From the NCBI GenBank assembly GCA_020630915.1, contig JAHDIF010000003.1, forward strand, positions 186,001-250,000: a stretch of DNA of 64,000 nt. The letters run 5' to 3'. This DNA comes from Dokdonia sp. (GTDB lineage: Bacteria; Bacteroidota; Bacteroidia; Flavobacteriales; Flavobacteriaceae). A program made the translations under genes and the position numbers. The notes beneath the pieces were generated by a model. That model was not told the DNA's origin. It ran no database searches and worked only from the letters and a program-made list of their open reading frames with translations. This document shows positions 2,003-59,017 of this stretch, one piece after another (the first letter of the stretch is position 1; every line of letters starts with the position of its first letter).

Positions 2003-2016
2003 GCTTTCGCGAAAGC
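2003..2016. repeat. 14-bp palindrome GCTTTCGCGAAAGC
   Basis: Exact copy, intergenic between ridA (start 1936) and the end of the LptD-like gene (stop at 2025). Confidence 0.95.
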
Positions 2017-2024
2017 GTTACCGA

Positions 2025-4796
2025 TTAACGTTCATCAGGAGCACGTCGTTTATCATATTTAATATCGCTTAGTAAACTACCAGAAATTCCAATAAAGAAA
2101 TTCCATCCTACTCGATTTACACGGCTATTAACTGGAGGGTTCCAACTAAAACGCATGGTCCAACTTTCTAAATCTCTGCTAAAGTTTAATGAGGTAAATG
2201 TAAATCCGGAATTACGAAGATCATATCCAGATGACCCTCCTACTTTCCATCGCTTACCAAGCTCTACATCACCACTAAAAACTAGCGAATGTGTACTTAT
2301 TTCATTTTGTCTTGAGTTGTTTGCATAGCTTATTTCGTAAGACATTCTAAGGTTCCAAGGAATATCAAAATTGTATAGGTTAATCTCCTGTTCTTCTCCA
2401 TCTTCTTCTTCCTGATTGTTATCTCTTATGGTATTGCCGGTAATATCTACGCCGCTACCCAAAAGATCATCGGGCCTACCTCCGCCTGCAAAAGTTTGAT
2501 TGTCTAGCCTGTCAGTATTTCTGTCATCATCCTTTTTATTACCTTCTTTAGAAAAATCTTTACTAGAAAAACTGTATCCAAAGTTTGCTCTAGCTCCAGT
2601 AAGTCTAAAAAGACTCCCCCCGTTATTTATGTTTAAAGTGTTTATTCTTCTATTATTATTATCAAGTGCATAAATATCCCAAGCTCCAGAAAAATTTATA
2701 TCCAGTTTGTTTTGTACAATGGGTATAGCCCCGCTAAATGCAATTGGGGCAAGCTTTAACTCATCTGCAGTGAGGTTGTAAGAGGTTCTTAAATTAAAGT
2801 TGTTCAGGAGTGATATTTTTCTAGGTTCTGTTTCTGTGCTATCGCGTGCTCTTACTTTTGCTTCTATCACATTACTCAAGGCAAAAGATAGTGAGGCACT
2901 TTTATTGTTTCCGGGTGCTCCAAAAAAGCCATTGTCAAAACGAGAAAACGCCACTTCTTCCGTAAGATCTGTAGCTAGAGGATTTGCCGAATCTGGTCTT
3001 AAAAACGAATCGAAAAATTGATCAAATGCAGGCGAGTAGCTTATACCTACAGAGGGTCTCATCACGTGTCGTATGGTTTGAATTTTACTTCCTTTTTTAA
3101 AATTAAATGTCCCGTATAAAGTGGTTCCCATACTAGCGCCTCCGCTATAGGTTCTAAAGGAATCAAATCCATTTGTAGTATCTGTTACTTCTTCTTGAAG
3201 CTCTTCATCATAAAAGCGATCTATAGTCTTAAATACCCAGCTCTCAGTATAATTTGCATTAATAGAAGTGCTTATATATTTGAAGAGCTTAAAATTGGTT
3301 GCTACGGGTATGGTATGTCTTATTCCAGATTGTCCATCTTTAAACATTTCTTGTGTAAAAAAGAGACTATCTGTAGTGGTGTATCTATTGTCTGCTCTTA
3401 CGGAGTAGCTTAGATTAATATTTTGCAAAGCACCTTTTTTAGATCCTGCTTTGGGAGCAAACGGGTAAACACGGTCTACGTTTACTTGAGCAGATGGTAA
3501 GGTCATATTGATCACCTCTGTATTAGAGTTCTGAGAATGTGTTGCGGCTAGCGTGATGTTCACTGGAGTTTTTCCAGGAAATGTTCTAGAATACGATACA
3601 GAGGAGCTAAAATTGTTATTTAAGAAGTTACCCGTATTGCTTTGGTTTATGGATTGCTGGAAAAAATCACTACTTCCTAGATTTACCGAGGCAGAAAATC
3701 TGCTATTAGGACTAGACTTTGTGTCTTGGCTGTGATTCCATCTTATATTATAAGTGGTTGTTTCAGAAAAATCTGGAAACCCTCTTTCACTAGCTAAAAT
3801 GCGCTCAAAATTAAAGTTGAAACGTCCTCCAAACTTATATCGTAACTTATAATTCGAATCTGCTCTAAAGGCATAGCTTCCATTAGTATAATAATCTCCA
3901 GTAAGAGCAAGATCAAAGTACTTACTTAGTGCAAAATAGTATCCTCCGTTTTGCAGGGCATACCCTCTAAGGTTACTCTCATTAAAGGAAGGTATTAGAA
4001 AACCGGACACACTTTCTTCTTTATCCATAGGGAAAAAAGCAAATGGTAAACCTATGGGTGTTGGAACATCTGCAATGTACATATTAGTCAATCCTGCAAC
4101 GAGTTTTTTACCTGGGACAAATTTTACTTTACGGGCATAAAAGTAGTATTCTGGATTGTCCAAATCCTTCGCCGTAGTAATCTTTACATTTTTCATAAAG
4201 ACTACAGAGTCGTTTACTCGTTTACTAACCGCTGCCTTAAGGTTTATGGGTTGCCCTCCAGCTCCTTCAACTCTAGAGCCATAAATAAGTGCTTTCTGAC
4301 TGTCAAAATTAAACTTTATGGAGTCAGGCTGAACCTCATTATTGCCTTGTACGAAAACTGGCGCTTGAGTGTAAGAATCTAATGAGTCTTTTATTCCTTT
4401 GGCAAATACCGTATTAGTCTCGTAATCAAGAATAATCTCTCCTGCATTTATCTTCATATCTTCATATACAACTTCAGCTTCATTGTAAAGATAGATTTTC
4501 TTAGTGCGCTGGCTTATTCTTTCGTAATCTGTTGCTTTATAGGTAACTTTATCTGTGAGTGGCTCCTTCCTGATTTTTATAGAATCTTGGGAAACTCGCA
4601 CACTATCTGTAAGAGTAGTGGTGGTGTCTTGGTTTCGCGTAAGCGGGACACTTATCTCTACAGCTGTTTTAGAACTATCTGCGGGTTTTGCAGGTATGGC
4701 ACCATTGTTGGATGGTAGTTCTTGTGATACAGCAGTGTTAATGCAAAGCAAGTATACTCCTAATAAAAGATAAAATGATAGGGTTTTTGTTTGCAA
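2025..4796 (-). CDS. lptD: LptD-like LPS-assembly outer membrane protein
   Basis: The protein resembles the Bacteroidota form of LptD, the outer membrane barrel that inserts lipopolysaccharide with LptE. After a signal segment (LSFYLLLGVYLLCINTAVSQ) comes an OstA/LptA-like beta-jellyroll (YLYNEAEVVYEDMKINAGEI), then a long C-terminal region of alternating polar/aromatic beta-strands ending near the C-terminus in WNFFIGISGSLLSDIKYDKR. I prefer the TTG at 4796 (923 aa): it puts the signal peptide at the N-terminus, and a TAATTTTG -7 element at 4841-4848 lies downstream of the alternative ATG at 4874 (949 aa). An acidic stretch (NQEEEDGEEQE) lies near residue 800. It is divergent from the amidase gene. 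Family assignment is good, the start is uncertain. Confidence 0.82.
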   Translation of the reverse strand: MQTKTLSFYLLLGVYLLCINTAVSQELPSNNGAIPAKPADSSKTAVEISVPLTRNQDTTTTLTDSVRVSQDSIKIRKEPLTDKVTYKATDYERISQRTKKIYLYNEAEVVYEDMKINAGEIILDYETNTVFAKGIKDSLDSYTQAPVFVQGNNEVQPDSIKFNFDSQKALIYGSRVEGAGGQPINLKAAVSKRVNDSVVFMKNVKITTAKDLDNPEYYFYARKVKFVPGKKLVAGLTNMYIADVPTPIGLPFAFFPMDKEESVSGFLIPSFNESNLRGYALQNGGYYFALSKYFDLALTGDYYTNGSYAFRADSNYKLRYKFGGRFNFNFERILASERGFPDFSETTTYNIRWNHSQDTKSSPNSRFSASVNLGSSDFFQQSINQSNTGNFLNNNFSSSVSYSRTFPGKTPVNITLAATHSQNSNTEVINMTLPSAQVNVDRVYPFAPKAGSKKGALQNINLSYSVRADNRYTTTDSLFFTQEMFKDGQSGIRHTIPVATNFKLFKYISTSINANYTESWVFKTIDRFYDEELQEEVTDTTNGFDSFRTYSGGASMGTTLYGTFNFKKGSKIQTIRHVMRPSVGISYSPAFDQFFDSFLRPDSANPLATDLTEEVAFSRFDNGFFGAPGNNKSASLSFALSNVIEAKVRARDSTETEPRKISLLNNFNLRTSYNLTADELKLAPIAFSGAIPIVQNKLDINFSGAWDIYALDNNNRRINTLNINNGGSLFRLTGARANFGYSFSSKDFSKEGNKKDDDRNTDRLDNQTFAGGGRPDDLLGSGVDITGNTIRDNNQEEEDGEEQEINLYNFDIPWNLRMSYEISYANNSRQNEISTHSLVFSGDVELGKRWKVGGSSGYDLRNSGFTFTSLNFSRDLESWTMRFSWNPPVNSRVNRVGWNFFIGISGSLLSDIKYDKRRAPDER
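4633..4646 (-). repeat. Degenerate palindrome copy (CCGCTTACGCGAAA on minus strand)
   Basis: A relative of the 14-bp palindrome, with GCTTACGCGAAA in place of GCTTTCGCGAAA. The same 14 bases recur at 35470 and 63209. Here it is read as Pro-Leu-Thr-Arg in the LptD-like protein. Confidence 0.6.
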
Positions 4797-4840
4797 AGGG
4801 ATTAGTCCTATTTTTGTGGTATTAGCCTCAATTAAAGTGC

Positions 4841-11133: not shown

Positions 11134-11147
11134 GCTTTCGCGAAAGC
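11134..11147. repeat. 14-bp palindrome GCTTTCGCGAAAGC
   Basis: Exact copy, intergenic, upstream of the GH3/beta-lactamase fusion gene and ahead of its putative promoter. Confidence 0.95.
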
Positions 11148-14166: not shown

Positions 14167-14180
14167 GCTTTCGCGAAAGC
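14167..14180. repeat. 14-bp palindrome GCTTTCGCGAAAGC
   Basis: Exact copy in the 38-bp gap between the GH3 fusion stop (14162) and the bshA ATG (14201). Confidence 0.95.
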
Positions 14181-15892: not shown

Positions 15893-18808
15893 ATGAAGGA
15901 GCAGTTAAAGATTTTGTCCCAAAAGTTACAAGGAGAACTTCACTGGGATAATTTACATAAGACGATTTATGCGACAGATGCATCGGTGTACCGTATAATA
16001 CCGCTAGCGGTGGCTTTTCCTAAATGTGAAGAAGATATTGTGGTTTTGTGCGCTTTCGCGAAAGCAAACCAAATCTCCTTCATACCAAGAGCAGCGGGTA
16101 CTTCTCTTGCTGGTCAGGTAATTGGCAAGGGGATTGTGGTCGATGTGTCTCGTTATATGAATCAAGTACTATCCATAGATAACAGGACAATTCCTGAATG
16201 GGTGACAGTACAGCCTGGATTAGTTCGTGATGAATTGAATAGGTACTTAAAATCTTATGACGTTTATTTTGGCCCAAACACCTCGACATCTAACCGTGCT
16301 ACGCTAGGAGGGATGGTAGGAAATAACTCTAGTGGTACTACGTCTATAAGTGAGGGAACTACACGCGATTGGATACAGAAAATAAGAATGGTGCTATCTG
16401 ATGGTTCTGTTGTAGTTTTTGAAGATCTAACGATGGCAGAACTGGAGGAAAAGTGTGCTTTACAAACCTTAGAAGGCAAGATTTACAGGGATCTCATAGA
16501 AATGCTTACTCCTGAGGAAATACAACAAGAAATAAAAACTCAATTTCCTAAACGTAATTTACAGCCTCATAGATCTGTGATGCGTAGGAATACAGGCTAC
16601 GCACTGGATGAGCTATTAAGACTATCTCCATTTATTAAAGGAACTGATTTTAATTTATGTCCACTCATAGCAGGAAGTGAAGGTACACTTGGATTTATTA
16701 CAGAAATTACCACCTATGTAGAAGAGCTAGAATTAGTACAGACCACGAGTATGGTAGCCGTACATTTTGAAAGTATTCAAGAATGTATGGAGGCGGTAGT
16801 GCCTATTATGAAGCATCGCCCTGTGACGTGTGAGATGATGGATAAGATCATTTTAGACTGTACAAAAAGTAATAAAACGCAAATAGTAAATCGATTTTTT
16901 ATAGTGGGAGATCCTAAAGCTATTTTATTAGTTGAACTTAAAGGAATAAATGAAAATATACAGCAGTCTAATGCTCAAAAGCTCATAGATGAGCTTAAAG
17001 ATCACAATGTTGGATATGCATTTCCTATTTTGGTAAACGGTCAAATTAATCAAGCATTAGAACTGCGCAAAGCAGGTCTTGGATTGCTAGGAAATATTGT
17101 TGGTGATAAAAAAGCAGTGGCTTGTATTGAAGATACAGCAGTGGCTATAGAAGACCTCTCTGCCTATATTGCTGAGTTCTCTAAAATTATGGAGCGCTAC
17201 GAGCAACAAGCCGTTTACTATGCACATGCAGGGGCTGGAGAGATACACTTGCGCCCCATTCTTAATCTTAAGAAAGGAAAAGATGTACAACTTTTTAGAG
17301 AGATCACACAAGAGGTAGTCGACCTTGTTAAAAAGTATAAAGGCTCATTAAGTGGGGAGCACGGTGATGGTATCGTGCGATCGGAATTTATAGAACAGAT
17401 GGTAGGGCCTAAAGTGTATGCACTTTTTAGACAGGTTAAAACACTCTTTGATCCTTCTAATATTTTTAATCCAGGTAAGATTGTAAATCCTTTACCAATG
17501 GATCAAAATTTACGATACGAAGTAGACCGTATAGAGCCAGAAATCAAAACATTACTTGACTTTACAGAAGATCAAGGAATCCTGCGCAGCGCAGAAAAAT
17601 GCAATGGAAGCGGAGACTGCAGAAAATTACCTGCTGCAGGAGGCGCCATGTGTCCAAGTTATCGCGCTACTCGTGATGAAAAGGATACTACTAGAGCTAG
17701 AGCAAATGCGTTACGTGAAATACTTACTACGTCTCAAAAGTCTAATAAGTTTGATCATCCAGAACTTAAAGAGGTTTTTGATCTCTGTATAAGTTGTAAG
17801 GCTTGTGCTAGTGAGTGTCCTAGTAATGTAGACGTAGCCACACTAAAAGCAGAGTTTGAGTATCAGTATCAAAAGGAAAATGGGAGTTCAATTAGAACGA
17901 AGCTTTTTGCTCATAATACTAAAATTAATAGAATGGGAGCTCGTGCTCCTGGTATATATAATGGGCTTTTAAGCGCTACTTCAGGAATAGCAAAGCAGGT
18001 TTTAGGAATCGCTAGAAAGCGAAGTATCCCCAAACTCAACACTTTTAAACCTACTAAAGATTTACTCCAAAAAAAAGGTAAACAAGATAAAGAAGTAGTT
18101 CTTTATGTAGATGAGTTTAGTCAATATTTGGATGGACATATAGCAAACGATGCACACGTTTTACTCGTTAGTTTAGGATATAAAGTAATGCTGCTAGATA
18201 ACCTAGAGAGTGGAAGGGCTTACCTTTCCAAAGGGTTTTTAGATCAGGCCCAAACGCTTGCAAATAAGAATATCAAAAAGTTTAAAGAGTTGGACAATGA
18301 TAAAGTGATCGTTGGGATAGAACCTTCTGCCATCTTAAGTTTTAGAGATGAATACCTCAAACTCGCAGATGATAAAGAAGCTGCAAAAAAACTCGCAAAT
18401 CGCTCTTTTATAATAGAAGAGTTCTTACATCAAGAAATTAAAGAGGGTCATATCACCTCAGATTCTTTTACCGATGAACAACGCAAGGTAAAAATACACG
18501 GGCATTGCCACCAGAAGGCCTTATCATCTATAGAACATACATTTGCGATATTAAATCTACCTCGCAACTATACCCCAACGATCATTCCATCTGGTTGTTG
18601 CGGTATGGCAGGAAGTTTTGGTTATGAGAAAGAGCATTATGAGATCAGTATGCAAATAGGAGAACAAACTTTGTTTCCTGCGATACGTAAGGCATCAAGT
18701 GATGTGATTATAGCCGCAAATGGCACAAGTTGCAGACATCAGATTTTAGATGGCACTTCTCGCAAAGCACTGCATCCTATTTCTATTTTAAAAGAGGCCT
18801 TACTTTAA
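15893..18808 (+). CDS. FAD-linked oxidase / Fe-S oxidoreductase fusion (GlcD-GlcF or D-lactate dehydrogenase type)
   Basis: The 971-aa protein fuses a VAO-type flavin dehydrogenase to an Fe-S module. The FAD-binding part (residues about 35-220) has RAAGTSLAGQ and GPNTSTSNRATLGGM, and the FAD-oxidase C domain extends to about residue 535 (SGEHGDGIVRSEF, FDPSNIFNPGKIV). Two cysteine clusters follow (CNGSGDCRKLP with CPSY, and CISCKACASECP), then CCG-type motifs HGHCHQKAL and GCCGMAGSFGYEKEHYE. This architecture oxidises 2-hydroxyacids such as D-lactate or glycolate into the quinone pool. The palindrome at 16052 encodes CAFAKANQ in the FAD domain. Substrate choice is uncertain. Confidence 0.9.
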   Translation: MKEQLKILSQKLQGELHWDNLHKTIYATDASVYRIIPLAVAFPKCEEDIVVLCAFAKANQISFIPRAAGTSLAGQVIGKGIVVDVSRYMNQVLSIDNRTIPEWVTVQPGLVRDELNRYLKSYDVYFGPNTSTSNRATLGGMVGNNSSGTTSISEGTTRDWIQKIRMVLSDGSVVVFEDLTMAELEEKCALQTLEGKIYRDLIEMLTPEEIQQEIKTQFPKRNLQPHRSVMRRNTGYALDELLRLSPFIKGTDFNLCPLIAGSEGTLGFITEITTYVEELELVQTTSMVAVHFESIQECMEAVVPIMKHRPVTCEMMDKIILDCTKSNKTQIVNRFFIVGDPKAILLVELKGINENIQQSNAQKLIDELKDHNVGYAFPILVNGQINQALELRKAGLGLLGNIVGDKKAVACIEDTAVAIEDLSAYIAEFSKIMERYEQQAVYYAHAGAGEIHLRPILNLKKGKDVQLFREITQEVVDLVKKYKGSLSGEHGDGIVRSEFIEQMVGPKVYALFRQVKTLFDPSNIFNPGKIVNPLPMDQNLRYEVDRIEPEIKTLLDFTEDQGILRSAEKCNGSGDCRKLPAAGGAMCPSYRATRDEKDTTRARANALREILTTSQKSNKFDHPELKEVFDLCISCKACASECPSNVDVATLKAEFEYQYQKENGSSIRTKLFAHNTKINRMGARAPGIYNGLLSATSGIAKQVLGIARKRSIPKLNTFKPTKDLLQKKGKQDKEVVLYVDEFSQYLDGHIANDAHVLLVSLGYKVMLLDNLESGRAYLSKGFLDQAQTLANKNIKKFKELDNDKVIVGIEPSAILSFRDEYLKLADDKEAAKKLANRSFIIEEFLHQEIKEGHITSDSFTDEQRKVKIHGHCHQKALSSIEHTFAILNLPRNYTPTIIPSGCCGMAGSFGYEKEHYEISMQIGEQTLFPAIRKASSDVIIAANGTSCRHQILDGTSRKALHPISILKEALL
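16052..16065. repeat. 14-bp palindrome GCTTTCGCGAAAGC
   Basis: Exact copy inside the FAD/Fe-S fusion gene, read as Ala-Phe-Ala-Lys-Ala just before the conserved RAAGTS motif. Confidence 0.95.
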
Positions 18809-19931: not shown

Positions 19932-20996
19932 ATGGCAGGAAATAGCTACGGAACGCTTTTTAAACTCACCACTTTTGGCGAATCTCACGGTAAGGCAATA
20001 GGTGGGATTATAGACGGCTGTCCAGCTGGTTTAGATGTAGATTTTGACTTTGTTCAATCTGAACTGGATAGACGCAAGCCAGGACAATCTAAAATTGTTA
20101 CGCAACGCAAAGAGCCAGATACGGTGGATTTCTTATCGGGTATTTTTGAAGGAAAAACGACTGGCACCCCTATTGGTTTTGAGATTGTTAATACCAATCA
20201 AAAATCTAAGGATTATTCCCATATAAAAGATACATACAGACCAAGTCATGCAGATTATACGTATGCCCAGAAGTATGGTAATCGTGATTATAGAGGCGGT
20301 GGCAGATCGTCTGCTAGAGAAACAGCAAGTAGGGTAGTAGCAGGAGCTATTGCTAAGCAAATGCTAGGCGATATGAAAATTACGGCATATGTTTCGGCAG
20401 TAGGAGATTTGGTTTCTGATATTCCATATCAAGTACTAGACTTCTCTGTAATTGAGAGCAATGATGTGAGGTGTGCCGATAGCGCTTTCGCGAAAGCGTG
20501 TGAAGAAAGAATTAAAGCGATACGTAAAGAAGGTGATACCATAGGCGGTGTGGTAAGCTGTGTTATTCAAAATGTACCCATAGGTTTAGGTGAACCGGTT
20601 TTTGATAAATTACATGCAGAATTAGGAAAGGCCATGTTGTCCATAAATGCCGTTAAAGGTTTTGAATATGGTAGTGGCTTTACTGGCGCTCAGATGAAGG
20701 GAAGCGATCATAATGATCTTTTTAATGAAGATGGATCTACTGTTACAAATATGAGTGGTGGAGTACAAGGTGGGATTTCTAACGGCATGGATATTTATTT
20801 TAACGTAGCCTTCAAGCCAGTTGCTACCGTCATGCAAAAGCAACCTGCGCTGCAAAGCGATGGTGCCATTACTGAGATGCAAGGTAAAGGACGTCACGAC
20901 CCTTGTGTAGTGCCTAGAGCTGTGCCTATTGTAGAGGCAATGGCTGCGCTCGTTATGGCAGATTTTGTGCTACGAGATAAATCTATTAGATTGTAA
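19932..20996 (+). CDS. aroC: Chorismate synthase
   Basis: AroC converts 5-enolpyruvylshikimate-3-phosphate to chorismate with reduced FMN, the last step of the shikimate pathway. The 354-aa sequence has all family signatures: [18 protein letters not shown], the [29 protein letters not shown] block and [18 protein letters not shown] near the C-terminus. It is full length. The palindrome at 20484 encodes [10 protein letters not shown] in a variable helix just before [10 protein letters not shown]. It stands alone between a divergent lipoprotein and a symporter gene. Confidence 0.98.
20484..20497. repeat. 14-bp palindrome GCTTTCGCGAAAGC
   Basis: Exact copy inside aroC, read as Ala-Phe-Ala-Lys-Ala. 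Confidence 0.95.
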
Positions 20997-25688: not shown

Positions 25689-26532
25689 GTTATCTATTAA
25701 TGAAATAATTTCAAAAATAGAGCGTCAAGAATGTTTTGAAGCTGTATCTGAGGATTACTCCTTTACTCTTAAAATAGAGGAATATACTTATTTTTTATGT
25801 GGTGCCGTGCACGATGGACATCAGTTCAGAAAAGAATTGTGGGATAATTGCTTGCATACAGAATATGAACGCTGGTACGAAGAAGATCCCTGCACAAAAC
25901 AAATGGTGCAGACGATGCCTATGGTCATAGCTGGCTGTGATAGTAGATTTGAATACGATTTGAATCGAGCTCCAGAAAGCGCAATTTACGAGGATGCTTG
26001 GGGTAAAAAATTGTGGAAAGACTCACTTAACGAAACTTCTAAGGATAAAAGTTTGAATAAACATTATAATTTTTACAAGGTAGTTTCTGCTCTTATTTTT
26101 AAGATAAAATCAATATATGGAGCTGCTATAATCTATGATATGCACTCATACAACTGGAAGCGATGGGACAGACCTGTACCTGTTGTAAATCTTGGAACCG
26201 CAAATATAGATGGAGAGCGCTATACCGCTTTCGCGAAAGCGTGGTGCGAATCATTAGCTACCATAGAGTTGCCAAACGACATAGAAACCACCACAGCCAT
26301 AAATGACACCTTCCAAGGGAATGGATATTTCCTCAAGTATATCACTCAAAGTTTTGATAATGTATTAGTGCTCGCCACAGAATTTTCAAAAATTTATTGT
26401 GATGAATATAAGTATATCATATTTCCAGAAGTCGTTTTTGCCATTGAAGAGCAACTTAAATTAAAGATTAGAAATCATGCACTGGCATTTTATAACGACT
26501 ATATTCTTAAAAACAATTTGCTGCCTACCTAA
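25681..26532 (+). CDS. N-formylglutamate amidohydrolase family protein
   Basis: The 283-aa protein belongs to the FGase family of zinc hydrolases. Visible family features are CGAVHDGHQFRKELWDN in place of the usual PHSG loop and AAIIYDMHSYNWKRWDRPVPVVNLGTANIDG with the conserved Asp-x-His-Ser and LGT segments. FGase proper removes formate from N-formylglutamate in histidine breakdown, but no hut genes are nearby, so a related amide or peptide is more likely. ATG 25681 lies in the end of the ATP-grasp gene, implying coupled translation. The palindrome at 26227 gives TAFAKAWCES. Confidence 0.85.
   Translation: MLRLSINEIISKIERQECFEAVSEDYSFTLKIEEYTYFLCGAVHDGHQFRKELWDNCLHTEYERWYEEDPCTKQMVQTMPMVIAGCDSRFEYDLNRAPESAIYEDAWGKKLWKDSLNETSKDKSLNKHYNFYKVVSALIFKIKSIYGAAIIYDMHSYNWKRWDRPVPVVNLGTANIDGERYTAFAKAWCESLATIELPNDIETTTAINDTFQGNGYFLKYITQSFDNVLVLATEFSKIYCDEYKYIIFPEVVFAIEEQLKLKIRNHALAFYNDYILKNNLLPT
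26227..26240. repeat. 14-bp palindrome GCTTTCGCGAAAGC
   Basis: Exact copy inside the FGase-like gene, read as Ala-Phe-Ala-Lys-Ala. Confidence 0.95.
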
Positions 26533-34799: not shown

Positions 34800-35921
34800 A
34801 TCATTCATTTTATTTGCTAAGGCATACTCATAAAATTCCCTTCCTAATTGTGCGAGAAAAGGGATACCTATTTCTTCATACTCATAGATATCATCATTAA
34901 AAATACCGTTGCGGTTTACCAAAATTGTAGCAGATAGTATGAATTGCACATTTTCCCTCTCATCCACAATGTATGCAGTTTCTGTAAGAGTGCCGTATGC
35001 ATATCCTACTTTATTATAAATTTTAATGTACTCTGGTATGCGTTCTTTACTATCACCATAGATAAAAAATTTGCCGTAACTGTCGTAATAGATACTGCTA
35101 TCGTAGCCAGCATTTTTGGGTAGTGTAGCCATTGCTTTTTTAATCCGTATGTTTTCTAAAGAATCTATTTTAAAGTGTTTGCTCTTGTCAAATTTTCTTG
35201 GAAAGAAAAACTGTTTCATCAAATCATGTTGATCTTGCAATGAGAAATAGTTTTTTAAGCTAAAATCCATAGGAGAATCTATAAGGCTTCTGTTTTTTAT
35301 AAAGCCTTTTCCTTTAGAAAGTGCTTTAAGTTTTAAAGGAACGATATCGCTATCGGGTAGTGATTCTGGGATAAACGTAGGTGACTCATAGGATGGGTAA
35401 AATTGTAATTCTTTCCTATTATGATCGGCGGCGTTTGGGGTAGACAGTCTGTGACTTATTCTTGTATTTATTAGTCCTTTTTCGCGTAAGCGGTCATTTA
35501 TAATATCTCTACCTAAGAGTTCATATAATCTGTTATATGCCTCATTATCGCTTACAGCAAATATTTTAAGTATATCATCTGCAATGGTATGGGATACGGA
35601 ATCTCCTTGTATACTATATGGTGTATCCAGATGGAGTTCTGGATTATGAGAAACATATTCGGCAGCTAGAAGGGCAACGGGGAGTTTTACGGTGCTAGCT
35701 GGGTAGAAGTAGTCGTTTTTGTTAGATTGGAAAGAGTGATCCGTAAAGTTTATTCCGTTCTCTGTACTATCTATTTGTGTAAATAGAATTTGCACTTCAT
35801 ATTGTGGCAAACTATCCATTACAGTGGTAATACTCTTGGAATTACTCTGTAATACATTTTCTACAGGATTGGAGCATCCTACTGCAAATAAAACTATGAA
35901 ACCTAACCATATTCTAGCCAT
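34794..35921 (-). CDS. Class A beta-lactamase-like serine hydrolase, lipoprotein
   Basis: The 375-aa protein has a lipobox signal peptide (LGFIVLFAVGCS, lipid Cys near residue 16). The nucleophile motif Ser76-Thr-Val-Lys79 lies in FYPASTVKLPVALL, and Ser124-Asp-Asn126 in FAVSDNEAYNRLYELLG, both in class A order; KVGYAYG near residue 320 stands where KTG normally lies. The N-terminus is long and the omega-loop Glu motif is not obvious, so it may be a PBP-like or esterase-type relative instead of a resistance enzyme. It converges on the VOC gene with a 6-base overlap. Confidence 0.85.
   Translation of the reverse strand: MARIWLGFIVLFAVGCSNPVENVLQSNSKSITTVMDSLPQYEVQILFTQIDSTENGINFTDHSFQSNKNDYFYPASTVKLPVALLAAEYVSHNPELHLDTPYSIQGDSVSHTIADDILKIFAVSDNEAYNRLYELLGRDIINDRLREKGLINTRISHRLSTPNAADHNRKELQFYPSYESPTFIPESLPDSDIVPLKLKALSKGKGFIKNRSLIDSPMDFSLKNYFSLQDQHDLMKQFFFPRKFDKSKHFKIDSLENIRIKKAMATLPKNAGYDSSIYYDSYGKFFIYGDSKERIPEYIKIYNKVGYAYGTLTETAYIVDERENVQFILSATILVNRNGIFNDDIYEYEEIGIPFLAQLGREFYEYALANKMNDL
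35470..35483 (-). repeat. Degenerate palindrome copy (CCGCTTACGCGAAA on minus strand)
   Basis: Same 14 bases as at 4633 and 63209. Here it is read in the frame Asp-Arg-Leu-Arg-Glu. Confidence 0.6.
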
Positions 35922-39379: not shown

Positions 39380-39393
39380 GCTTTCGCGAAAGC
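39380..39393. repeat. 14-bp palindrome GCTTTCGCGAAAGC
   Basis: Exact copy, intergenic, 10 bases past the end of the S10 peptidase gene (stop at 39403 on the minus strand). Confidence 0.95.
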
Positions 39394-39402: not shown

Positions 39403-40896
39403 TTAATACTTCGCTCCCTGACTAATCTTAACGGAAGACTTTACAATAAAATCCCTGATATCATCATTGGCTTTTATCAAATCTTCATTGCGTAGATACA
39501 TCATGTGCCCACTGCGATAGCCTTTAAAGCTTAGTCTATCCGAGAGTTTTCCAGAAGCGTTGAGTTGCCACATCACATATTTTGCATTAAAATAAGTGGT
39601 AGCTCCATCAAAGTATCCACTCTGTATCATCACGTGAAGATTTGGGTTTACTCCCATCGTTTTACGTAGTTGAGCACCCGTATTATTTTTAGAACGATCC
39701 CAGGGACGCACAGGACCAAACATATTATAACTCAAATCTGTTTTAAGGCCTAGCTCTTCTTGGTAATAATAGTTAATCGCTGGCGTAAATGAATGTAACC
39801 AAGAGGTCAGTTCGCTATTGTAATCAGGACTATCACCGGCTTCTTTTACGTCTAGACCCTTATATCTTGAGTCAAGTCGTCCTATAGTTAAGCCATCACG
39901 ATCTCTTAAAAGGTCTTTCCAGAAATAGTTTTTGGGTACTTCTAGATTATGCTGGCGTATTGTTTTTTCTGAGAGTCCAGAGTAATACGCCATCTTTTTA
40001 ATGGCTGCTTCCTTTTTTGCAGGGTCTAAATAGCCAGACTTGACAATCATAGGTAGTAGCTGGTTTACGGTATAGTCTTCACTTTCTGCCAAGACTTCTG
40101 GTAAATCTTTGTTTTGTAAGGCTGGAGGTAACATGTTGTGATACCAAGCCGCCGCCGTAAAATAGGGGAGACGGTTCGCTACTTCTACAGGGCCGTCAAA
40201 CTCAAACCCTATTTCTGTAGGCGATACTAAAATCACACCATTTATATACATCCATTTGCGCTCCTGCAATGCCGCAGCAAGGCCAGAAACGCGTGTTGTA
40301 CCGTAGCTTTCTCCTATGAGGTATTTAGGCGATCGCCATCTGTTATTGCGAGTTACAAAGGTATTTACCCAATCTGCGAGATAGGCAACATCTGCATTTA
40401 CCCCAAAAAATAGTTCTTTATCGGGCATCTTACCCTCTTTATTAGGTAACATCCTGCTATAACCTGTATTTACGGGGTTTACAAACACAATATCGGCTAC
40501 GTCCAGCACAGAGTTTGGGTTGGACTTTATGCCGTACGGTTGTACAGCAAAACCTTCATCATCTATTTTAAGGATGCGTGGTCCCGTGTAGGCTATGTGC
40601 ATCCATACAGAGGCAGATCCTGGTCCGCCGTTAAAGGAGATGAGCAATGGTCTATTCTGATCATCTTTGATATCACTTCTTTTATAATAAGTATATAATA
40701 AAGTCGCGATAGGCATTCCCTCCTTGTCCCAAACGGGTTGGAACCCTGCAGTGGCCGTAAAGGGTATGGTTTTGCCTTTAATCGTTGTGGTATGAGTAGT
40801 TACGATAGTGGTGTCTACAGGAACGTGTACTTTTTGAGCATACGCTTTCGCGAAAGCGAAAACACATAGAATTACGAAAGCTTTTGAAATTTTCAT
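39403..40896 (-). CDS. Serine carboxypeptidase family (S10) peptidase
   Basis: The 497-aa exported protein has a signal peptide (MKISKAFVILCVFAFAKAYAQ) and the S10 landmarks LISFNGGPGSASVW near residue 87, VFVNPVNTGYSRM near 140, and the nucleophile Ser197 in YLIGESYGTTRVSG. The C-terminal half has VMIQSGYFDGATTY with the catalytic Asp and GYRSGHMMYL with the His. These enzymes remove C-terminal residues at acidic pH. The palindrome at 40844 encodes AFAKA in the signal peptide itself. It is the last gene of the satD-DUF3307 group, 12 bases behind. Confidence 0.92.
   Translation of the reverse strand: MKISKAFVILCVFAFAKAYAQKVHVPVDTTIVTTHTTTIKGKTIPFTATAGFQPVWDKEGMPIATLLYTYYKRSDIKDDQNRPLLISFNGGPGSASVWMHIAYTGPRILKIDDEGFAVQPYGIKSNPNSVLDVADIVFVNPVNTGYSRMLPNKEGKMPDKELFFGVNADVAYLADWVNTFVTRNNRWRSPKYLIGESYGTTRVSGLAAALQERKWMYINGVILVSPTEIGFEFDGPVEVANRLPYFTAAAWYHNMLPPALQNKDLPEVLAESEDYTVNQLLPMIVKSGYLDPAKKEAAIKKMAYYSGLSEKTIRQHNLEVPKNYFWKDLLRDRDGLTIGRLDSRYKGLDVKEAGDSPDYNSELTSWLHSFTPAINYYYQEELGLKTDLSYNMFGPVRPWDRSKNNTGAQLRKTMGVNPNLHVMIQSGYFDGATTYFNAKYVMWQLNASGKLSDRLSFKGYRSGHMMYLRNEDLIKANDDIRDFIVKSSVKISQGAKY
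40844..40857. repeat. 14-bp palindrome GCTTTCGCGAAAGC
   Basis: Exact copy inside the signal peptide codons of the S10 peptidase gene, read as Ala-Phe-Ala-Lys-Ala. Confidence 0.95.
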
Positions 40897-42412: not shown

Positions 42413-43765
42413 GATCTTACCATTTTTAATGGTAAGCTGTATAGACATCGTATTTTTAATATCCTCCAGCGGATTTTTTTCTAGTAACACTAAGTCTGCT
42501 GTTGCTCCTGATTTTAGTCCGTACATATCCTTCTGTAAGAATCTCGGACCGTTACCAAAACTGGTTTGTAAAGCTTCTTGTGGAGCTAAGCCTGCCTGCA
42601 CCATTTGTTGAAGCTCTTTGTGTAAGGATGGTCCTGGATATACATATGAGTTATAGGCACCGCAATCCGATCCTGCCAGCAATCCCACGTCTGCCTTATA
42701 AAGACTTGCAGTCAATTTTACAAAGAATTTTTGAAGGTCTTTTCTATCTTGCTTTGCTTTATTGGTTGCTGTTAACGCGCGTTTGTTTCTTCCTTCAAAG
42801 GTTTTAATAAAGGTGTCAGATAGATGCGATAGGTACCTATCATTAGTATGATCTAACTCATCTAGATAACTCAGGATATCACCTATATGCAAGGTAGGCG
42901 TCACAAAAACATTTTGATCTTTTAATCGCTTGAAGGTTGCTTGTGCGGTATCTTCATCATAGGTGGTTATGAGCTGCGACATACTGTCCCAAAAACCTAA
43001 CTCGCCCGCTATGATTTGTTGAGTAATCTCTTTTTCCTTAGAAGAGCATCCTTTTAAAATGTAATACAAATGCTCTACGTTATCTAATCCAGCGTTAATT
43101 GCTTCATTAAGCTCTACGGTAAACGGCATATGACCAGAAGTAATCATAGATCGTTCTTGAGCCTCGGCGATGATGTCTAGATAATGCTTTCGTGAAAGCG
43201 TACTATCATACAACTTCACATAATCTACATTTAGGGATTGAAGTGAATCCAGTGCTGTAGAAATGTCCTTGTCATTTGCTACCGGAATAGATCCTTCCCA
43301 ACGGGCATTGGGGCCATCTAGCTTAGGGCCTGAGGTATAAATGGTAGGGCCTACGCGTTGGTTATTTTGTATTTCTTGATTCCATTGTTGGATTAGAGGT
43401 GTAAGATCGCCACCTGCATCTCGTACTGTAGTGATCCCGTACTTTATGTATTGTTTTAAGAAGGCTTCGTTTTGTTTGATAAGTTCGTTACCACCTCTAA
43501 AATGTACGTGATTGTCCCAAAATCCGGGTAGGAGGTATTTTCCGTCTCCGTCTATTAATTGCTTATAGCCAAATTCATACTCTTCATTTCTTAACGAAAT
43601 ACGAGCAATTGTATCTTTATTAATACAAACAGTTCCTGTTTCAAAAATTCCTTTTTCTACATTGTAAATCTCTGTACAGCATATCACTAGATCATAGACT
43701 AATGCCTTCTCATTGTTGCAACTTACAAAACTTAGTGCGAAAAGAACGATAAATAAAAGCCTCAT
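42392..43765 (-). CDS. Amidohydrolase family lipoprotein
   Basis: The 457-aa protein has a lipobox signal (LLFIVLFALSFVSC) and the amidohydrolase barrel: the metal motif His-x-His in PGFWDNHVHFRGG near residue 85, TTVRDAGGD, ITSGHMPFTVELNEAI with later ligands GLDNVEHLYYIL, and the final Asp in GLLAGSDCGAYNSYVYPG. It resembles imidazolonepropionase-like or prolidase-type amidohydrolases often exported with peptidases in marine flavobacteria. The operon carries YdeI, M1 and M28 genes upstream of it. The substrate is probably a dipeptide or cyclic amide; this is inference. Confidence 0.88.
   Translation of the reverse strand: MRLLFIVLFALSFVSCNNEKALVYDLVICCTEIYNVEKGIFETGTVCINKDTIARISLRNEEYEFGYKQLIDGDGKYLLPGFWDNHVHFRGGNELIKQNEAFLKQYIKYGITTVRDAGGDLTPLIQQWNQEIQNNQRVGPTIYTSGPKLDGPNARWEGSIPVANDKDISTALDSLQSLNVDYVKLYDSTLSRKHYLDIIAEAQERSMITSGHMPFTVELNEAINAGLDNVEHLYYILKGCSSKEKEITQQIIAGELGFWDSMSQLITTYDEDTAQATFKRLKDQNVFVTPTLHIGDILSYLDELDHTNDRYLSHLSDTFIKTFEGRNKRALTATNKAKQDRKDLQKFFVKLTASLYKADVGLLAGSDCGAYNSYVYPGPSLHKELQQMVQAGLAPQEALQTSFGNGPRFLQKDMYGLKSGATADLVLLEKNPLEDIKNTMSIQLTIKNGKIYKLKSL
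43186..43199. repeat. Palindrome variant GCTTTCGTGAAAGC
   Basis: One base differs from the 14-bp palindrome. It lies inside the amidohydrolase gene, read in the Leu-Ser-Arg-Lys frame on the minus strand. Confidence 0.7.
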
Positions 43766-45978: not shown

Positions 45979-47310
45979 CTATCTAAATATACTATTAGGA
46001 AACACTACAGGACTCTCGTGACCATCTTTACCAATAGCGGCCACGCCAAAAAAGAAGTTGTCAATCACGATACCTTTTAGCGTGTACTGAGTTATGTTAC
46101 CCACAAGGCGTGCATGATCCCAAGTAGGGGATGTGGTATCTCGCCAATATATCCTATAACCTATGGCACCTTCTACAGGACTCCATTTAAACTTGGCGCT
46201 AGGCGCTACGATTCCTCCAATGCTTACACTTTTTGGAGCAGGTGGTGCCCACGCTATACTGGCAAGATTGATAGCATTTACCGCTGTAAGTTTTGCAGCA
46301 TACGGGAAGTTTACGTGTTCAAAAGTGTCTCCGTAATTAATACCATTTTCCGTACGGATATCTTGATGCTGTTGGGTGTAGTTTTCGTGTGCCTCCATAA
46401 TACGTATTCCTGCATACCCTGCATCATTAAATGGACGATGATGCCCACCTCGTCCAAAGCGGTCTAAACGATATACCATCATAGGGTTCATTTCTGGCAT
46501 ATAGGTCTTTACGGTTTTGTGGATGTATCTAGCTAGTTGTCTGGAGATTCCGTCTACTTCACCGCCATAAAAACGACGGGCGCGACGTTGCTTATCGGTT
46601 TCGGTAGGAGGGACGGGCTCAGAAAAAATACGGAAGGTTCTATTATCTATCACGCCGTCTACACCTGTAATATTCCCTATCATATCGTTATTGAGGATTC
46701 CTATGATTTCCCATTCTTTAGCTTTCGCGAAAGCGGCCAAACCCTGTCCACCAAAAAGACCTTGCTCTTCTCCAGAAAGCCCCACGTAAATTATAGAATT
46801 CTCAAACTTATATTTTGAAAGTACCCTGGCAGCCTCCATTGTTCCAGCCATTCCGGTTGCATTATCATTAGCACCTGGAGAATCTGAAGTGTAGTCTGTA
46901 GGGTCCGACACGCGACTGTCTATATCACCACTCATAATAATAAAGCGGTTAGGGAATTTTGTGCCACGTTGTATCGCGACTACGTTTACAACCTCTACAT
47001 CTTTTACGATGCGATTATTGGTTCCTTTTTTTACCAAATCCTTTTGATAGAAAACTTCCAGACATCCATTACAGTCGTTAGAGGTTTTGTCAAATTCTGA
47101 TTTTATCCATCGTCTAGCGGCTCCTATACCTCTTGTTTGAGAAACAGTATCACTTAATGTATGCCTTGTCCCAAAATCAGCAAGTTTCTTAACATCGTGT
47201 TGAATACGATCTTGTGAGACGGCTTCTATAATATCATAAATTCTCTGGTCTGTTTGTGCAAAGACTGCAGTGGTACATATAAATGTAAAAAGTGTAAGTA
47301 TATTTTTCAT
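45979..47310 (-). CDS. M28 family zinc aminopeptidase
   Basis: The 443-aa exported protein has a signal peptide (LTLFTFICTTAVFAQ). The M28 domain has the first metal Asp and catalytic residues in DSPGANDNATGMAGTMEAARVL, the Glu-Glu pair in VGLSGEEQGLFGGQG and further metal ligands in ILNNDMIGN and GGHHRPFNDAGYAGIRI. A fibronectin III-like C-terminus (APPAPKSVSIGG, GYRIYWRDTTSPTWDHAR) follows. The palindrome at 46721 encodes LAAFAKAKEWE just after the metal-binding Glu. Gene order places it between a CBM9-like lipoprotein and the M1 peptidase. Confidence 0.93.
   Translation of the reverse strand: MKNILTLFTFICTTAVFAQTDQRIYDIIEAVSQDRIQHDVKKLADFGTRHTLSDTVSQTRGIGAARRWIKSEFDKTSNDCNGCLEVFYQKDLVKKGTNNRIVKDVEVVNVVAIQRGTKFPNRFIIMSGDIDSRVSDPTDYTSDSPGANDNATGMAGTMEAARVLSKYKFENSIIYVGLSGEEQGLFGGQGLAAFAKAKEWEIIGILNNDMIGNITGVDGVIDNRTFRIFSEPVPPTETDKQRRARRFYGGEVDGISRQLARYIHKTVKTYMPEMNPMMVYRLDRFGRGGHHRPFNDAGYAGIRIMEAHENYTQQHQDIRTENGINYGDTFEHVNFPYAAKLTAVNAINLASIAWAPPAPKSVSIGGIVAPSAKFKWSPVEGAIGYRIYWRDTTSPTWDHARLVGNITQYTLKGIVIDNFFFGVAAIGKDGHESPVVFPNSIFR
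46721..46734. repeat. 14-bp palindrome GCTTTCGCGAAAGC
   Basis: Exact copy inside the M28 peptidase gene, read as Ala-Phe-Ala-Lys-Ala on the minus strand. Confidence 0.95.
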
Positions 47311-50583: not shown

Positions 50584-50661
50584 TTTAGTTGTGAATCTCA
50601 CAAGTACGCTTTAACGCGATGCTCTCCCTTTAGTCGTGAATCTCACAAGTTCGATTTCGCG
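50584..50661. repeat. Direct repeat with GTGAATCTCAC core upstream of 49036-50538
   Basis: TTTAGTTGTGAATCTCACAA (from 50584) recurs as TTTAGTCGTGAATCTCACAA (from 50629), 45 bases later. Each continues into a sequence ending CGCG, and the second ends in a near-copy of the 14-bp palindrome. The core GTGA-ATC-TCAC is itself palindromic. Confidence 0.65.
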
Positions 50662-50666
50662 AAAGC
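50653..50666. repeat. Palindrome variant GATTTCGCGAAAGC
   Basis: One base differs from the 14-bp palindrome. It is intergenic, between the propeller gene and the membrane protein gene. Confidence 0.7.
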
Positions 50667-54283: not shown

Positions 54284-54297
54284 GCTTTCGCGAAAGC
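54284..54297. repeat. 14-bp palindrome GCTTTCGCGAAAGC
   Basis: Exact copy in the divergent region between uvrA (start 54222) and the sigma factor gene (start 54520). The remaining bases up to 54519 are AT-rich; I see no convincing TAnnTTTG there. Confidence 0.95.
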
Positions 54298-55359: not shown

Positions 55360-55773
55360 TTACAGAACTATTTGTAAAAGGCTAATGATAAAAATGAGTG
55401 TCCAGAGTAGTGTACGGGTCCAGTTTTTTGTAACGAGGGTTTTAGGTATGCTTTCTCGAAAGCCTTCTTTACTAATACTCCCGTGAAGGGGAACAAATAT
55501 AAAGAAGGTCAGAGCCCAGATACTTAGTACGAGTAACAAATAGGCAATGCTAAATGTGGCTGCGTTATTGATAACTTGATACACCGCAATACCTAGTTGA
55601 ACGATCATTAAAGGCCCTACAATTTTTGCTATAGCAGGAGTATATCGTTTGTGCCACTCAATCAATCGCTCTTTTGAATAGTATGTAAAACTTGGGTAAA
55701 TAATGGTCTGTACTATCCATATTAAAATCAGCAAACCAAAATCCACAATTACTCTAAGTAGATCTAAGCTCAT
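55360..55773 (-). CDS. Conserved four-helix membrane protein
   Basis: The 137-aa protein has four hydrophobic helices (VIVDFGLLILIWIVQTIIY, IVGPLMIVQLGIAVYQVI, IAYLLLVLSIWALTFFIFV and TLLWTLIFIISLLQIVL). Short polar segments between them include YPSFTYYSKERLIEWHKRY and VPLHGSISKEGFRESIP. The length and layout fit a small conserved integral membrane family of Bacteroidota without known function. Its ATG overlaps the nth stop by one base, so translation is coupled. A near-copy of the palindrome lies at 55450. Confidence 0.8.
   Translation of the reverse strand: MSLDLLRVIVDFGLLILIWIVQTIIYPSFTYYSKERLIEWHKRYTPAIAKIVGPLMIVQLGIAVYQVINNAATFSIAYLLLVLSIWALTFFIFVPLHGSISKEGFRESIPKTLVTKNWTRTLLWTLIFIISLLQIVL
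55450..55463. repeat. Palindrome variant GCTTTCTCGAAAGC
   Basis: One base differs from the 14-bp palindrome. It is inside the membrane-protein gene, read as Gly-Phe-Arg-Glu-Ser on the minus strand. Confidence 0.7.
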
Positions 55774-56960: not shown

Positions 56961-57749
56961 GCCGCCGTTTGCTTGCATATCTGCAATGCATAAAGGATCA
57001 AAATCAGGAATACTACCTATATTACTTGTATTAAAAATATTAGTTACTGTCTCAAAGTACATCAAACATTCTTCTACATTGCAATGTCTAGTATTTACTT
57101 GATCTTCATGATCAGAAGTAAGAGGTGTTCCTACGTTTACCAAGCCTAGTATGTGACCAAACTCGTGCCTTAAAGTTGAAGTCTCAATAAGCGACCTATT
57201 AATAGGAGTAGGTGAATTATTTGCTAATTCTATAAACGTACGTTCAAATATGACTATAGAAGTATTTCTATAGGCAGAGCCTAGGACAACAGAATTTCCT
57301 GAATTGGAAGAAGATTCTTCTCCAGAAAAAAAGATCCATACGCCTATTTCATCACCATTATTAAATATCGTTCTGTATTCGTCTTCTATAGCTACTATTT
57401 CATTTATATCGTAAGGTCCAGGTTGAGAAGGAGTTTCAATCAGGTTTTCTACTATTGTAATACCATCTGGTTTGTTTAATCGTTCTTGTAAAAAACCTTC
57501 TATTAAGTCAATCGTGTTTTGTGTAGGCCTATAACCATCTGGGTATGCAAGTTCTACTCTTAAACTAGAAAAATTGTCAACAGATAATAAGTCATTTGCA
57601 GATGTGCCCAGCGGTTGTTTATTTGCCATATTCTCCTCTGTATCAGGATTATCTGGATTTGAACTTTCATTATCATCTTTACACCCAGTGAATAGTACAA
57701 CTACAAGAATTGTTGTAATTAACGCTTTGGTATATTTATTGTAAATCAT
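56955..57749 (-). CDS. Metzincin-like metalloprotease lipoprotein
   Basis: The 264-aa protein has a lipobox (ITTILVVVLFTGC, lipid Cys23) and a zinc motif His195-Glu196-xx-His199 (TLRHEFGHILGLVN) as in metzincins, with Asn205 where a third His is usual, and a downstream EECLMYFE that could be the Met-turn (Met230). An earlier GVWIFFSGEESSSNSGNSVVLGSAY resembles the edge strand of reprolysin-like domains. Relatives are called membrane metalloprotease in flavobacteria. The odd third ligand means activity is likely but unproven. Confidence 0.85.
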   Translation of the reverse strand: MIYNKYTKALITTILVVVLFTGCKDDNESSNPDNPDTEENMANKQPLGTSANDLLSVDNFSSLRVELAYPDGYRPTQNTIDLIEGFLQERLNKPDGITIVENLIETPSQPGPYDINEIVAIEDEYRTIFNNGDEIGVWIFFSGEESSSNSGNSVVLGSAYRNTSIVIFERTFIELANNSPTPINRSLIETSTLRHEFGHILGLVNVGTPLTSDHEDQVNTRHCNVEECLMYFETVTNIFNTSNIGSIPDFDPLCIADMQANGGL

Positions 57750-57783
57750 TATATATATCTTTATCCACTAATTAATCGTAAAA

Positions 57784-58317
57784 ATGATGAAAAAATTACT
57801 TACAGCCATATTTATTTTCACTTCTTTAAGCTTTTATGCGCAAGAAGCAAGTTATCAAGAGATTGCTTTAAAGTATTTACAAACAAATGGTACAGCACAA
57901 CAGTACGAAGGTGCCATAGATCAATTATTCGGTCTCTTAAAACAACAATATGCTGGTCAAAATATACCTGATGAGACTTGGGCGACTTTAAGGACAGAGT
58001 CTTCGGGAGAAGTAAATAAGGTGATGAGCATGCTTGTTTCTGCTTATAGAGGCACCTATGAGAAGGAAGATCTTGTAAATATGCTTGCCTTTTATGAAAC
58101 TGATGCAGGCAGACAACTTTTAACAGATAAAACTGCTTTGGACTACGAGCAAAGAAAGGATGCATCAGTATTTTATAACTCTCCTACGGGGCAGAAAATC
58201 TTAACTTCTGAGCAACAGATTGCTGCCAGAGTAGGTGAGGTTTCAGAGATCTGGAGTAGAGATTTATACAGAAGTGTTACAGATAAGTTAGCAGCAAAAG
58301 GATTTACATTACACTAG
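57784..58317 (+). CDS. DUF2059 exported protein
   Basis: The 177-aa protein has a signal peptide (LLTAIFIFTSLSFYAQ) and the DUF2059 helical domain: YQEIALKYLQTNGTAQQYEGAIDQ, then VSAYRGTYEKEDLVNMLAFYETDAGRQLL and SPTGQKILTSEQQIA. DUF2059 proteins are small periplasmic helical proteins without a known activity. It converges on the methyltransferase with a 14-base overlap. Confidence 0.88.
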   Translation: MMKKLLTAIFIFTSLSFYAQEASYQEIALKYLQTNGTAQQYEGAIDQLFGLLKQQYAGQNIPDETWATLRTESSGEVNKVMSMLVSAYRGTYEKEDLVNMLAFYETDAGRQLLTDKTALDYEQRKDASVFYNSPTGQKILTSEQQIAARVGEVSEIWSRDLYRSVTDKLAAKGFTLH

Positions 58318-59017
58318 TAATTCTCGCTAAATATTCATAATGAGTACCTTTTAAAATGAGCTCACAGTTGAGCTCATTTTTTTGTGCTTTTGTTTTGAGG
58401 GTTTCAAAATCTAAGTATAACCAATCAAATTTTAAACCCATATTTTTCTTATAGCTCATTGCCATCTTGACCTCTCCGTAATAATCACTATTGAGATCTT
58501 GCCAGTAGCTTCCATCTTCAGCTTCATACATATACTTAATGTCAGATCCATCTATAAGTATCTGACCTCCATTTTTTAGCAATGTTTTTAAATGCTTTAA
58601 ATACAAATCTATTTTGGCTATACTCTCAAATATTCCAGTACCGTTCATTAGTAATAACAGAGAGTCATATCTATCTGTATGATGCAATATGTGACGATGT
58701 ATAACATTTTTGAGACCACGCTTTCGCGAAAGCATAACAGCACCCCCAGAAATATCCAAGCCCGTAACATCAAGTCCCGTTTCTTGCAGCCAGAGACTGT
58801 GACTTCCAGCACAGCACCCTATGTCTAGGGTTTTTCCTTTACAAAGCTTTAGGGCTTTCTGTTCTATAAGCGGCATTTCTTCAAATTCCCTAAAGAGATA
58901 GGGTATAGGCATCTCATCATCTTCTGCAATGGAAGAATGCACCGTGATATCTTGAGAATAATCTCCGTTGTGGTAATCCCAGAGTGCCTGGCCTAAAATA
59001 TCTGTACTTTCAATCAT
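58304..59017 (-). CDS. Class I SAM-dependent methyltransferase
   Basis: The 237-aa protein has a Rossmann-like methyltransferase fold: motif I LDIGCCAGSHSLWL, then LDVTGLDISGGAVML with the acidic residue for the SAM ribose, a later LLLMNGTGIF and HLKTLLKNGGQILIDGSDI motifs. The substrate is unknown. The palindrome at 58720 is read here in a different frame (MLSRKRGL), the only exact coding copy that is not AFAKA. It starts 20 bases from the divergent YkgJ gene. Confidence 0.88.
   Translation of the reverse strand: MIESTDILGQALWDYHNGDYSQDITVHSSIAEDDEMPIPYLFREFEEMPLIEQKALKLCKGKTLDIGCCAGSHSLWLQETGLDVTGLDISGGAVMLSRKRGLKNVIHRHILHHTDRYDSLLLLMNGTGIFESIAKIDLYLKHLKTLLKNGGQILIDGSDIKYMYEAEDGSYWQDLNSDYYGEVKMAMSYKKNMGLKFDWLYLDFETLKTKAQKNELNCELILKGTHYEYLARITSVM
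58720..58733. repeat. 14-bp palindrome GCTTTCGCGAAAGC
   Basis: Exact copy inside the methyltransferase gene, read as Leu-Ser-Arg-Lys on the minus strand. Confidence 0.95.

Follow-up and report, generated by a model that had tools for sequence, protein, structure and literature searches.

A dispersed palindromic element with G-poor flanks in Dokdonia and related marine flavobacteria

Among the closest described counterparts of the element reported here are the DNA uptake sequences. To our knowledge, none of the known uptake sequences is palindromic, and we know of no uptake experiments in Dokdonia or Nonlabens. The parS sites of the ParB and Noc proteins are palindromes of similar length with TTTC/GAAA arms, and Chi sequences are short and asymmetric, with recognition taking place in single-stranded DNA. 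Even spacing of uptake sequences is recorded in passages of an earlier study (PMC1939737). Excerpts of two other papers state that neisserial uptake sequences are missing in recently acquired genes and scarcer than expected in diversifying regions (PMC2397512), and that in Haemophilus AT-tracts are found outside the core too (PMC7811141). Conjugative elements of Neisseriaceae were, according to part of a further report, detected through their atypical uptake-sequence distribution (PMC7371117). For Riemerella anatipestifer, passages of one paper describe natural transformation without recognisable pilus genes (PMC8459023), and for R. columbina an excerpt describes a preference for its own DNA in transformation (PMC7965970). 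Elhai's model for the HIP1 sequence of cyanobacteria, in the part of the text consulted, likewise predicts that copies saturate at a fixed spacing (PMC4390886).

The repeated unit, its copies and their spacing

We analysed a window of 64,000 nucleotides (the whole stretch from position 186,001 to 250,000 of contig JAHDIF010000003.1) from Dokdonia sp. A sequence-only reading of this window had described a 14-bp perfect palindrome, GCTTTCGCGAAAGC, in 15 exact copies and four one-mismatch forms. All of these were found where it had placed them, and its division into six intergenic and nine in-gene exact copies matches crude gene calls. The copies are, as it had proposed, far above chance in the window, since dinucleotide shuffles gave a mean of 0.01 matches with up to one mismatch and a maximum of 1. 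It had also listed three copies of a related, half-degenerate form, CCGCTTACGCGAAA. Those at 4633 and 63209 are present, and the third lies at 35480 and not at 35470. Each of the three is in minus orientation. The features of the window are:

2003..2016, no strand, exact 14-bp core, intergenic; the unit extends about 19 bp beyond it on each side
4633..4646, minus strand, related half-degenerate form CCGCTTACGCGAAA
9255..9268, no strand, exact 14-bp core, intergenic
11134..11147, no strand, exact 14-bp core, intergenic
14167..14180, no strand, exact 14-bp core, intergenic
16052..16065, no strand, exact core in the FAD-oxidase gene 15893-18808, AFAK frame; exact in 3/5 relatives, absent in 2/5
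20484..20497, no strand, exact core in the chorismate synthase gene aroC 19932-20996, AFAK frame
26227..26240, no strand, exact core in the FGase-family gene 25681-26532, AFAK frame; ortholog in the stretch in 1/5 relatives, exact
31387..31400, no strand, exact core in the mnmA-type gene 30664-31857, AFAK frame; exact in 4/4 relatives with an ortholog in the stretch
33238..33251, no strand, exact core in the S8 peptidase gene 31873-33480, AFAK frame; absent in 4/4 relatives with an ortholog in the stretch
35480..35493, minus strand, related half-degenerate form CCGCTTACGCGAAA
36430..36443, no strand, exact core in the PLP decarboxylase gene 35958-37175, AFAK frame; orthologs 3/4 exact, 1/4 with one mismatch
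39380..39393, no strand, exact 14-bp core, intergenic
40844..40857, no strand, exact core in the S10 peptidase-like gene 39403-40896, AFAK frame; compared stretches without ortholog
43186..43199, no strand, one-mismatch form of the core
46721..46734, no strand, exact core in the M28 peptidase gene 45979-47310, AFAK frame; compared stretches without ortholog
50653..50666, no strand, one-mismatch form of the core
54284..54297, no strand, exact 14-bp core, intergenic
55450..55463, no strand, one-mismatch form of the core
58720..58733, no strand, exact core in the methyltransferase-domain gene 58304-59017, LSRK frame; exact in 4/4 relatives with an ortholog in the stretch
61072..61085, no strand, one-mismatch form of the core
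63209..63222, minus strand, related half-degenerate form CCGCTTACGCGAAA

The genome to which the window belongs (2.97 Mb in 18 contigs) has 685 exact copies of GCTTTCGCGAAAGC, which amounts to one in about 4.3 kb, and a control with the letters reversed gave no match in the same genome. For a 450-kb sample of genome G000, 96 exact copies were counted together with 14, 12 and 28 copies at one, two and three mismatches, while one order-3 Markov simulation of this sample yielded 0, 0, 2 and 16 copies at zero to three mismatches. This predominance of exact copies is a mark of upkeep and not of decay. The half-degenerate relative GCTTACGCGAAA occurs nine times in the same 450 kb and may represent a weaker second class of sites or decayed copies. 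A further observation on this sample is the deficit of CATG (463 against 1298 expected, a ratio of 0.36) and CCCGGG (0 against 3.8 expected), which suggests restriction avoidance.

The recognised unit is about 52 bp long and consists of the 14-bp palindromic core and a G-avoiding tract of about 19 bases on each side. Read away from the core in either direction, the sequence avoids G between about positions 4 and 19, and G is back by about position 20. The outward G fraction at positions 4-19 is 0.082 in G000 (0.163 at positions 24-60), 0.076 at the Dokdonia loci (background 0.160), 0.073 at the Nonlabens loci (background 0.178) and 0.041 in G317 (background 0.141), with Fisher p values of 3e-21 to 1e-29; four of these positions in G317 are entirely without G over 68 flanks. 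The depletion is weak in G266 (0.188 against 0.239, p 4e-4), and 13 chance matches in other low-GC taxa gave 0.135 against 0.169 (p 0.11). G-poor flanks are present for intergenic and in-gene copies, on both sides of the latter. The sequence-only reading, with its unit of 14 bp, had overlooked these flanks, and likewise that copies repel each other and also occur on phages and islands, as described below.

The palindrome itself continues for about three bases past the core, in Dokdonia as TAY-core-RTA. Nonlabens has a different flank consensus, with other letters favoured at positions 2-4. Beyond about position 3, mirroring of the flanks is no greater than their composition predicts, scattered positions excepted, and the flanks therefore seem to be independent of each other instead of forming a longer hairpin. 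An extended hairpin or cruciform was rejected on this ground and for the weak single-strand folding (z values of -0.9 to -2.8 for six of the 15 window sites).

Copies of the element repel each other. None of the 93 gaps in G000 is shorter than 1000 bp against 18 expected as the null mean, the smallest being 1128 bp, and the coefficient of variation (CV) of the gaps is 0.71 against 0.99 expected. It ranges from 0.36 to 0.60 in 80-kb stretches of five genomes of the genus and reaches 0.76 in G266 and 0.78 in G317. When ten stretches of eight genomes were pooled, 266 gaps, which are partly non-independent because many orthologous sites are common to the genus genomes, included none below 600 bp (33 expected) and four below 1000 bp (53 expected). 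One-mismatch copies are tolerated near exact ones, with 4 of 14 lying within 1000 bp. The exception to the repulsion is a pair 222 bp apart in two islands of non-carrier genomes.

Intergenic positions hold 40 of the 96 copies in the 450-kb sample, whereas only about 9% of the sequence is intergenic, and the AFAK frame is used by 41 of the 56 in-gene copies. A role as intrinsic terminator was rejected, as spaces between convergent genes hold 2 of the 40 intergenic copies and make up 23 of 238 intergenic spaces in the null. Five gaps in the G000 sample exceed 8.5 kb, and copy-free stretches of 15-20 kb occur. Ten proteins from four of these five gaps, all except the one on C3, were scanned for domains and mostly belong to variable gene classes. 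One of the gaps is a polysaccharide cluster with pyruvyl and glycosyl transferases, EpsG and asparagine synthase, and the others contain a 2089-aa protein, an OmpA-domain protein, a CHAT protein and a NACHT/NB-ARC protein.

Taxonomic range and origin of the copies

Among 148 relatives counted, all 18 genomes of the genus Dokdonia, the window's own included, contain hundreds of copies (369-905), so that neither a count near expectation nor an absence from close relatives was found. In the same set, G027 has 578 copies and 11 other genomes have 1-17. A family-wide draw of 397 genomes revealed six with more than 300 copies, 74 with 1-19 and 317 with none. The six high-copy genomes are two of Dokdonia, three of Nonlabens (genus g11, 578-664 copies) and one of genus g225 (408 copies). 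No copy was detected in any of 59 genomes from other families of the order. A scan of public genomes gave at least 107 stretches; among those listed, 41 are named Dokdonia, 29 were counted as Nonlabens, including four BBFL7-named records which we take to belong there, and 37 are others.

Dispersed iterated palindromes like this one were not found in 20-kb samples of 13 non-carrier genera. These samples contained one repeated palindrome inside a 273-bp tandem repeat and one palindrome pair that fits parS. The survey comprised 20 regions, five of them all N and two taken from the carrier G027 and from G068. In the literature searched, the letters of the 14-mer and of its inner 12-mer occur in no paper, and the portions of text retrieved for Dokdonia, Nonlabens, Flavobacteriaceae or Bacteroidetes in combination with palindromes, motifs or HIP1 contain no description of the element. 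A self-recognition-like sign in some marine flavobacteria seems to be undescribed.

For each of the nine in-gene copies of the window, the orthologous site was sought in stretches of five relatives, and in 27 of the 45 cases the stretch contained an ortholog. The copy is exact in 19 of these 27, carries one mismatch in 2 and is absent in 6, at protein identities of 59-84%. Control in-frame 14-mers from the same alignments were identical in 276 of 12489 cases (2.2%). Between genera, none of eight in-gene comparisons was exact, and the best showed two mismatches.

The copy in aroC is exact at 16 of 17 loci of the genus, the window included, and has one mismatch at the remaining locus. At 13 aroC loci from outside the genus, the codons aligned to the copy encode variable residues. 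Since the copy fills aligned codons, it arose by substitutions, some of which changed amino acids. An origin by insertion or transposition of a REP- or MITE-like sequence was therefore rejected for aroC, the only gene examined across genera, and the selfish inserted repeat that the sequence-only reading had considered is unsupported in this gene.

A third carrier genus, represented by G266, contains an exact copy in the same AFAK motif of aroC as Dokdonia. The AroC tree places G266 beside the non-carrier G163. In the ComEC tree its branch is long and joins Dokdonia at moderate support. The comEC gene itself also carries a copy, and G000, G004, G017 and G266, carriers from two genera, have it at the same RFRES motif. 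The recurrence of the aroC and comEC copies in G266 points to shared ancestry or to transfer.

Copies on phages and islands

A first viral scan gave at least 120 stretches, with 133 sites among those listed. Only 38 of these 133 sites have element-like flanks (score of at least 0), so most of the viral matches listed are chance. A second scan with a 16-mer gave 41 stretches. From both scans 30 viral contigs were tabulated, of which 21 have 2-7 exact copies in the pieces examined, at a GC content of 0.33-0.48 by piece. A 27-kb contig examined in full carries five copies, and another carries seven in 31 of its 37 kb; as the contigs were chosen for carrying sites, these densities represent an upper view. 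The viral-contig sites are G-poor outward as well (0.093 against 0.212 for 60 sites, related contigs being non-independent). By shared proteins, the site-bearing phage contigs form at least two groups with differing structural genes. One contig encodes portal, terminase, protease, capsid, sheath and baseplate proteins, and another an integrase and a primase. No family common to the phage groups, among those scanned against Pfam as candidate readers, had a match. The phages P12024S and P12024L, which have a recorded Persicivirga host and are filed as Nonlabens phages, contain no copy even at two mismatches. Viral contig 3300040781_000495 has seven copies at a GC content of 0.41-0.48 in the pieces examined, and may infect a carrier lineage richer in GC.

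Among non-carrier genera with several copies and positions listed, the copies mostly cluster. All 16 copies of G152 lie within 78 kb, 6 of 7 in G397 within 17 kb, all four of G154 within 11 kb and all five of G163 within 22 kb; 18 of 19 in G362 and 16 of 17 in G068 are located on two contigs each. Copper and other metal efflux is the cargo common to the clusters, with integrase and RteC close by in some. Such efflux cargo with the same pair of sites 933 bp apart occurs in many flavobacterial genera, and the distance recurs exactly because both sites sit in the same outer-membrane efflux gene. An island common to G152 (G152:C3, about 62-115 kb), G362 and G068 bears copies along its length. It encodes a Strawberry-notch helicase, an N6-methylase-like protein and many small proteins, and it lies close to ftsZ- and ftsA-like genes, as judged by N-terminal letters only. 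On the islands, and on the phage contigs, which were chosen for carrying the element, the copy density is near that of the hosts.

Scattered copies occur instead in other genomes: most of five in G425, three in G426, and most of those in G404 and G220. The latter two species have four copy positions in common. A positive flank score was obtained for 3 of 12 sites examined in them, and outward G is still low (0.120 against 0.197). Their scattered copies may be relics of a lost system.

Possible functions and known systems

Protein families were screened for a reader of the element. ParB/Noc was rejected, with one ParB match in 12 of 13 carriers and two in G011. A pattern which we take to be that of parS is retained in all 13 carriers, 2-3 times each. 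The methyltransferase families PF00145, missing in 7 of 13 carriers, and PF01555, above the cut-off in 2 of 13, are not common to carriers. The type IV pilus ATPase (T2SSE) is patchy; it was above the cut-off in 7 of 42 genomes, including 5 of the 13 carriers, and 8 of 13 carriers are without it. ComEC was found in all 26 genomes tested, at 183-201 bits in carriers and 196-223 bits in non-carriers, and an alignment of 12 sequences revealed no carrier-specific ComEC domain.

Among the roles raised by the sequence-only reading, the likeness to uptake sequences holds best, given the even spacing, the conserved in-gene copies and the gaps with mostly variable genes. A palindromic self sequence of the DNA-uptake type, used in natural transformation, is our best reading, which we hold tentatively and at a little less than an even chance. 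The sequences show the distribution and anatomy of the element, its repulsion, its conservation in the genus, an origin by substitution in one gene and its occurrence on phages and islands; a reading protein, its dimeric form and uptake as the process are our inference. A putative dimeric, sequence-specific DNA-binding protein most probably reads the 52-bp element, and released DNA bearing the sign would be preferentially taken up and recombined. Such preference could spread exact copies and retain them in the shared genome. A second copy nearby would contribute little to uptake, from which repulsion would result, and variable regions would end up without copies. Phages and islands with the element would gain an extra route between cells.

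The even gaps, the predominance of the exact form, the 19 of 27 exact orthologous sites and the intergenic bias agree with uptake. The longest copy-free stretches include the polysaccharide cluster, very large genes and the NACHT gene, the difference in flank consensus between Dokdonia and Nonlabens resembles dialects, and all 13 carriers have ComEC. However, non-carriers have ComEC just as carriers do, and the screen yielded no receptor. Few sites are common between genera, though the aroC and comEC copies recur in G266, and the 222-bp pair in two non-carrier islands does not fit either. The near-host density on phages and islands is the main point in favour of other explanations, as direct selection on spacing would account for it more simply than a slow drive.

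Such selection is what a chromosome-architecture site would involve, an unlikely explanation but a serious one. A nucleoid, loop-anchoring or segregation protein would have to bind once in every few kb, and the spacing would be kept by selection on any resident DNA, prophages and islands included. The density on islands and on the phage contigs picked for sites is consistent with this, as are the dyad-symmetric unit of about 52 bp and the two copy-free phages isolated on a Nonlabens-type host. The low CV of gaps in the five genus genomes also fits, though G000, G266 and G317 have higher values. However, G000 tolerates stretches of 15-20 kb without a copy, related genera live without the element, and ParB is excluded as its reader.

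A two-way recombination or repair signal, Chi-like but readable from either side, seems rather improbable. The C-poor, G/T-rich tract 5' of the core on each strand might favour RecA loading, and this strand composition of the flanks, the spacing of a few kb and the carriage by phages, one contig having an integrase, would suit such a signal. Its form, however, is unlike the short, asymmetric, single-strand-read Chi, and single-strand folding was weak in the six window sites. We give still less credence to a licence mark for defence or silencing, under which unsigned DNA would be attacked or silenced and long-term residents would hence carry the sign. Phage contigs rich in sites, which fall into at least two groups and include one with an integrase, and the lack of sites in P12024S and P12024L would be expected, but these isolate phages number only two and the host chromosome retains long stretches without a site. 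An origin like that of HIP1, as a side effect of a methyltransferase and of methyl-directed mismatch repair, is very improbable. The likeness drawn by the sequence-only reading stands as far as a palindrome in very many copies goes. However, carriers do not have either of the two tested methyltransferase families in common, TCGCGA outside the copies is neither depleted nor enriched (30 against 28.5 expected), and 14 bp plus flanks exceeds the usual length of methyltransferase sites.

Should it prove to be an uptake sequence, the element would be the first known to us in Bacteroidota as well as the first palindromic one, and would offer a handle on how flavobacteria take up DNA independently of pili. 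An architectural role would instead mean a chromosome-wide binding system of a new kind with measurable spacing. Either way, the element may mark donors: clusters outside the carrier genera hint at islands that came from carriers, and finding it in a phage contig gives a clue to the possible host. It is conceivable, although the balance tilts against it, that the element belongs to an undescribed class, a 52-bp dyad-symmetric sign with G-free arms around a palindromic core that is kept every few kb on chromosomes throughout entire genera, and likewise on unrelated phages and integrated islands. This would imply a shared code of identity or organisation for resident DNA, with a putative reader protein.

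With parS the element contrasts in number, 685 copies against 2 parS in the same genome, and no ParB paralogue is common to carriers. Like Chi, it is dispersed a few kb apart with a strand-asymmetric composition around the site, features which we take to hold for Chi, whereas it is palindromic and long and its copies strongly repel each other. HIP1 of cyanobacteria (GCGATCGC) is likewise an iterated GC-rich palindrome found genome-wide, in and between genes, but has 8 bp, compared with 14 bp plus flanks at one copy per 4.3 kb and without a common methyltransferase of the two families here. From the DUS of Neisseriaceae and the USS of Pasteurellaceae the element differs by its palindromic core, the G-free flanks on both sides, the near-host density on phages and islands and the type IV pilus ATPase missing in most of the 13 carriers, and uptake is a process that we infer here. 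It resembles both in its hundreds of dispersed exact copies, their even spacing, intergenic bias and conservation, their apparent lack in variable regions, the extended flanks and a flank consensus that differs between genera.
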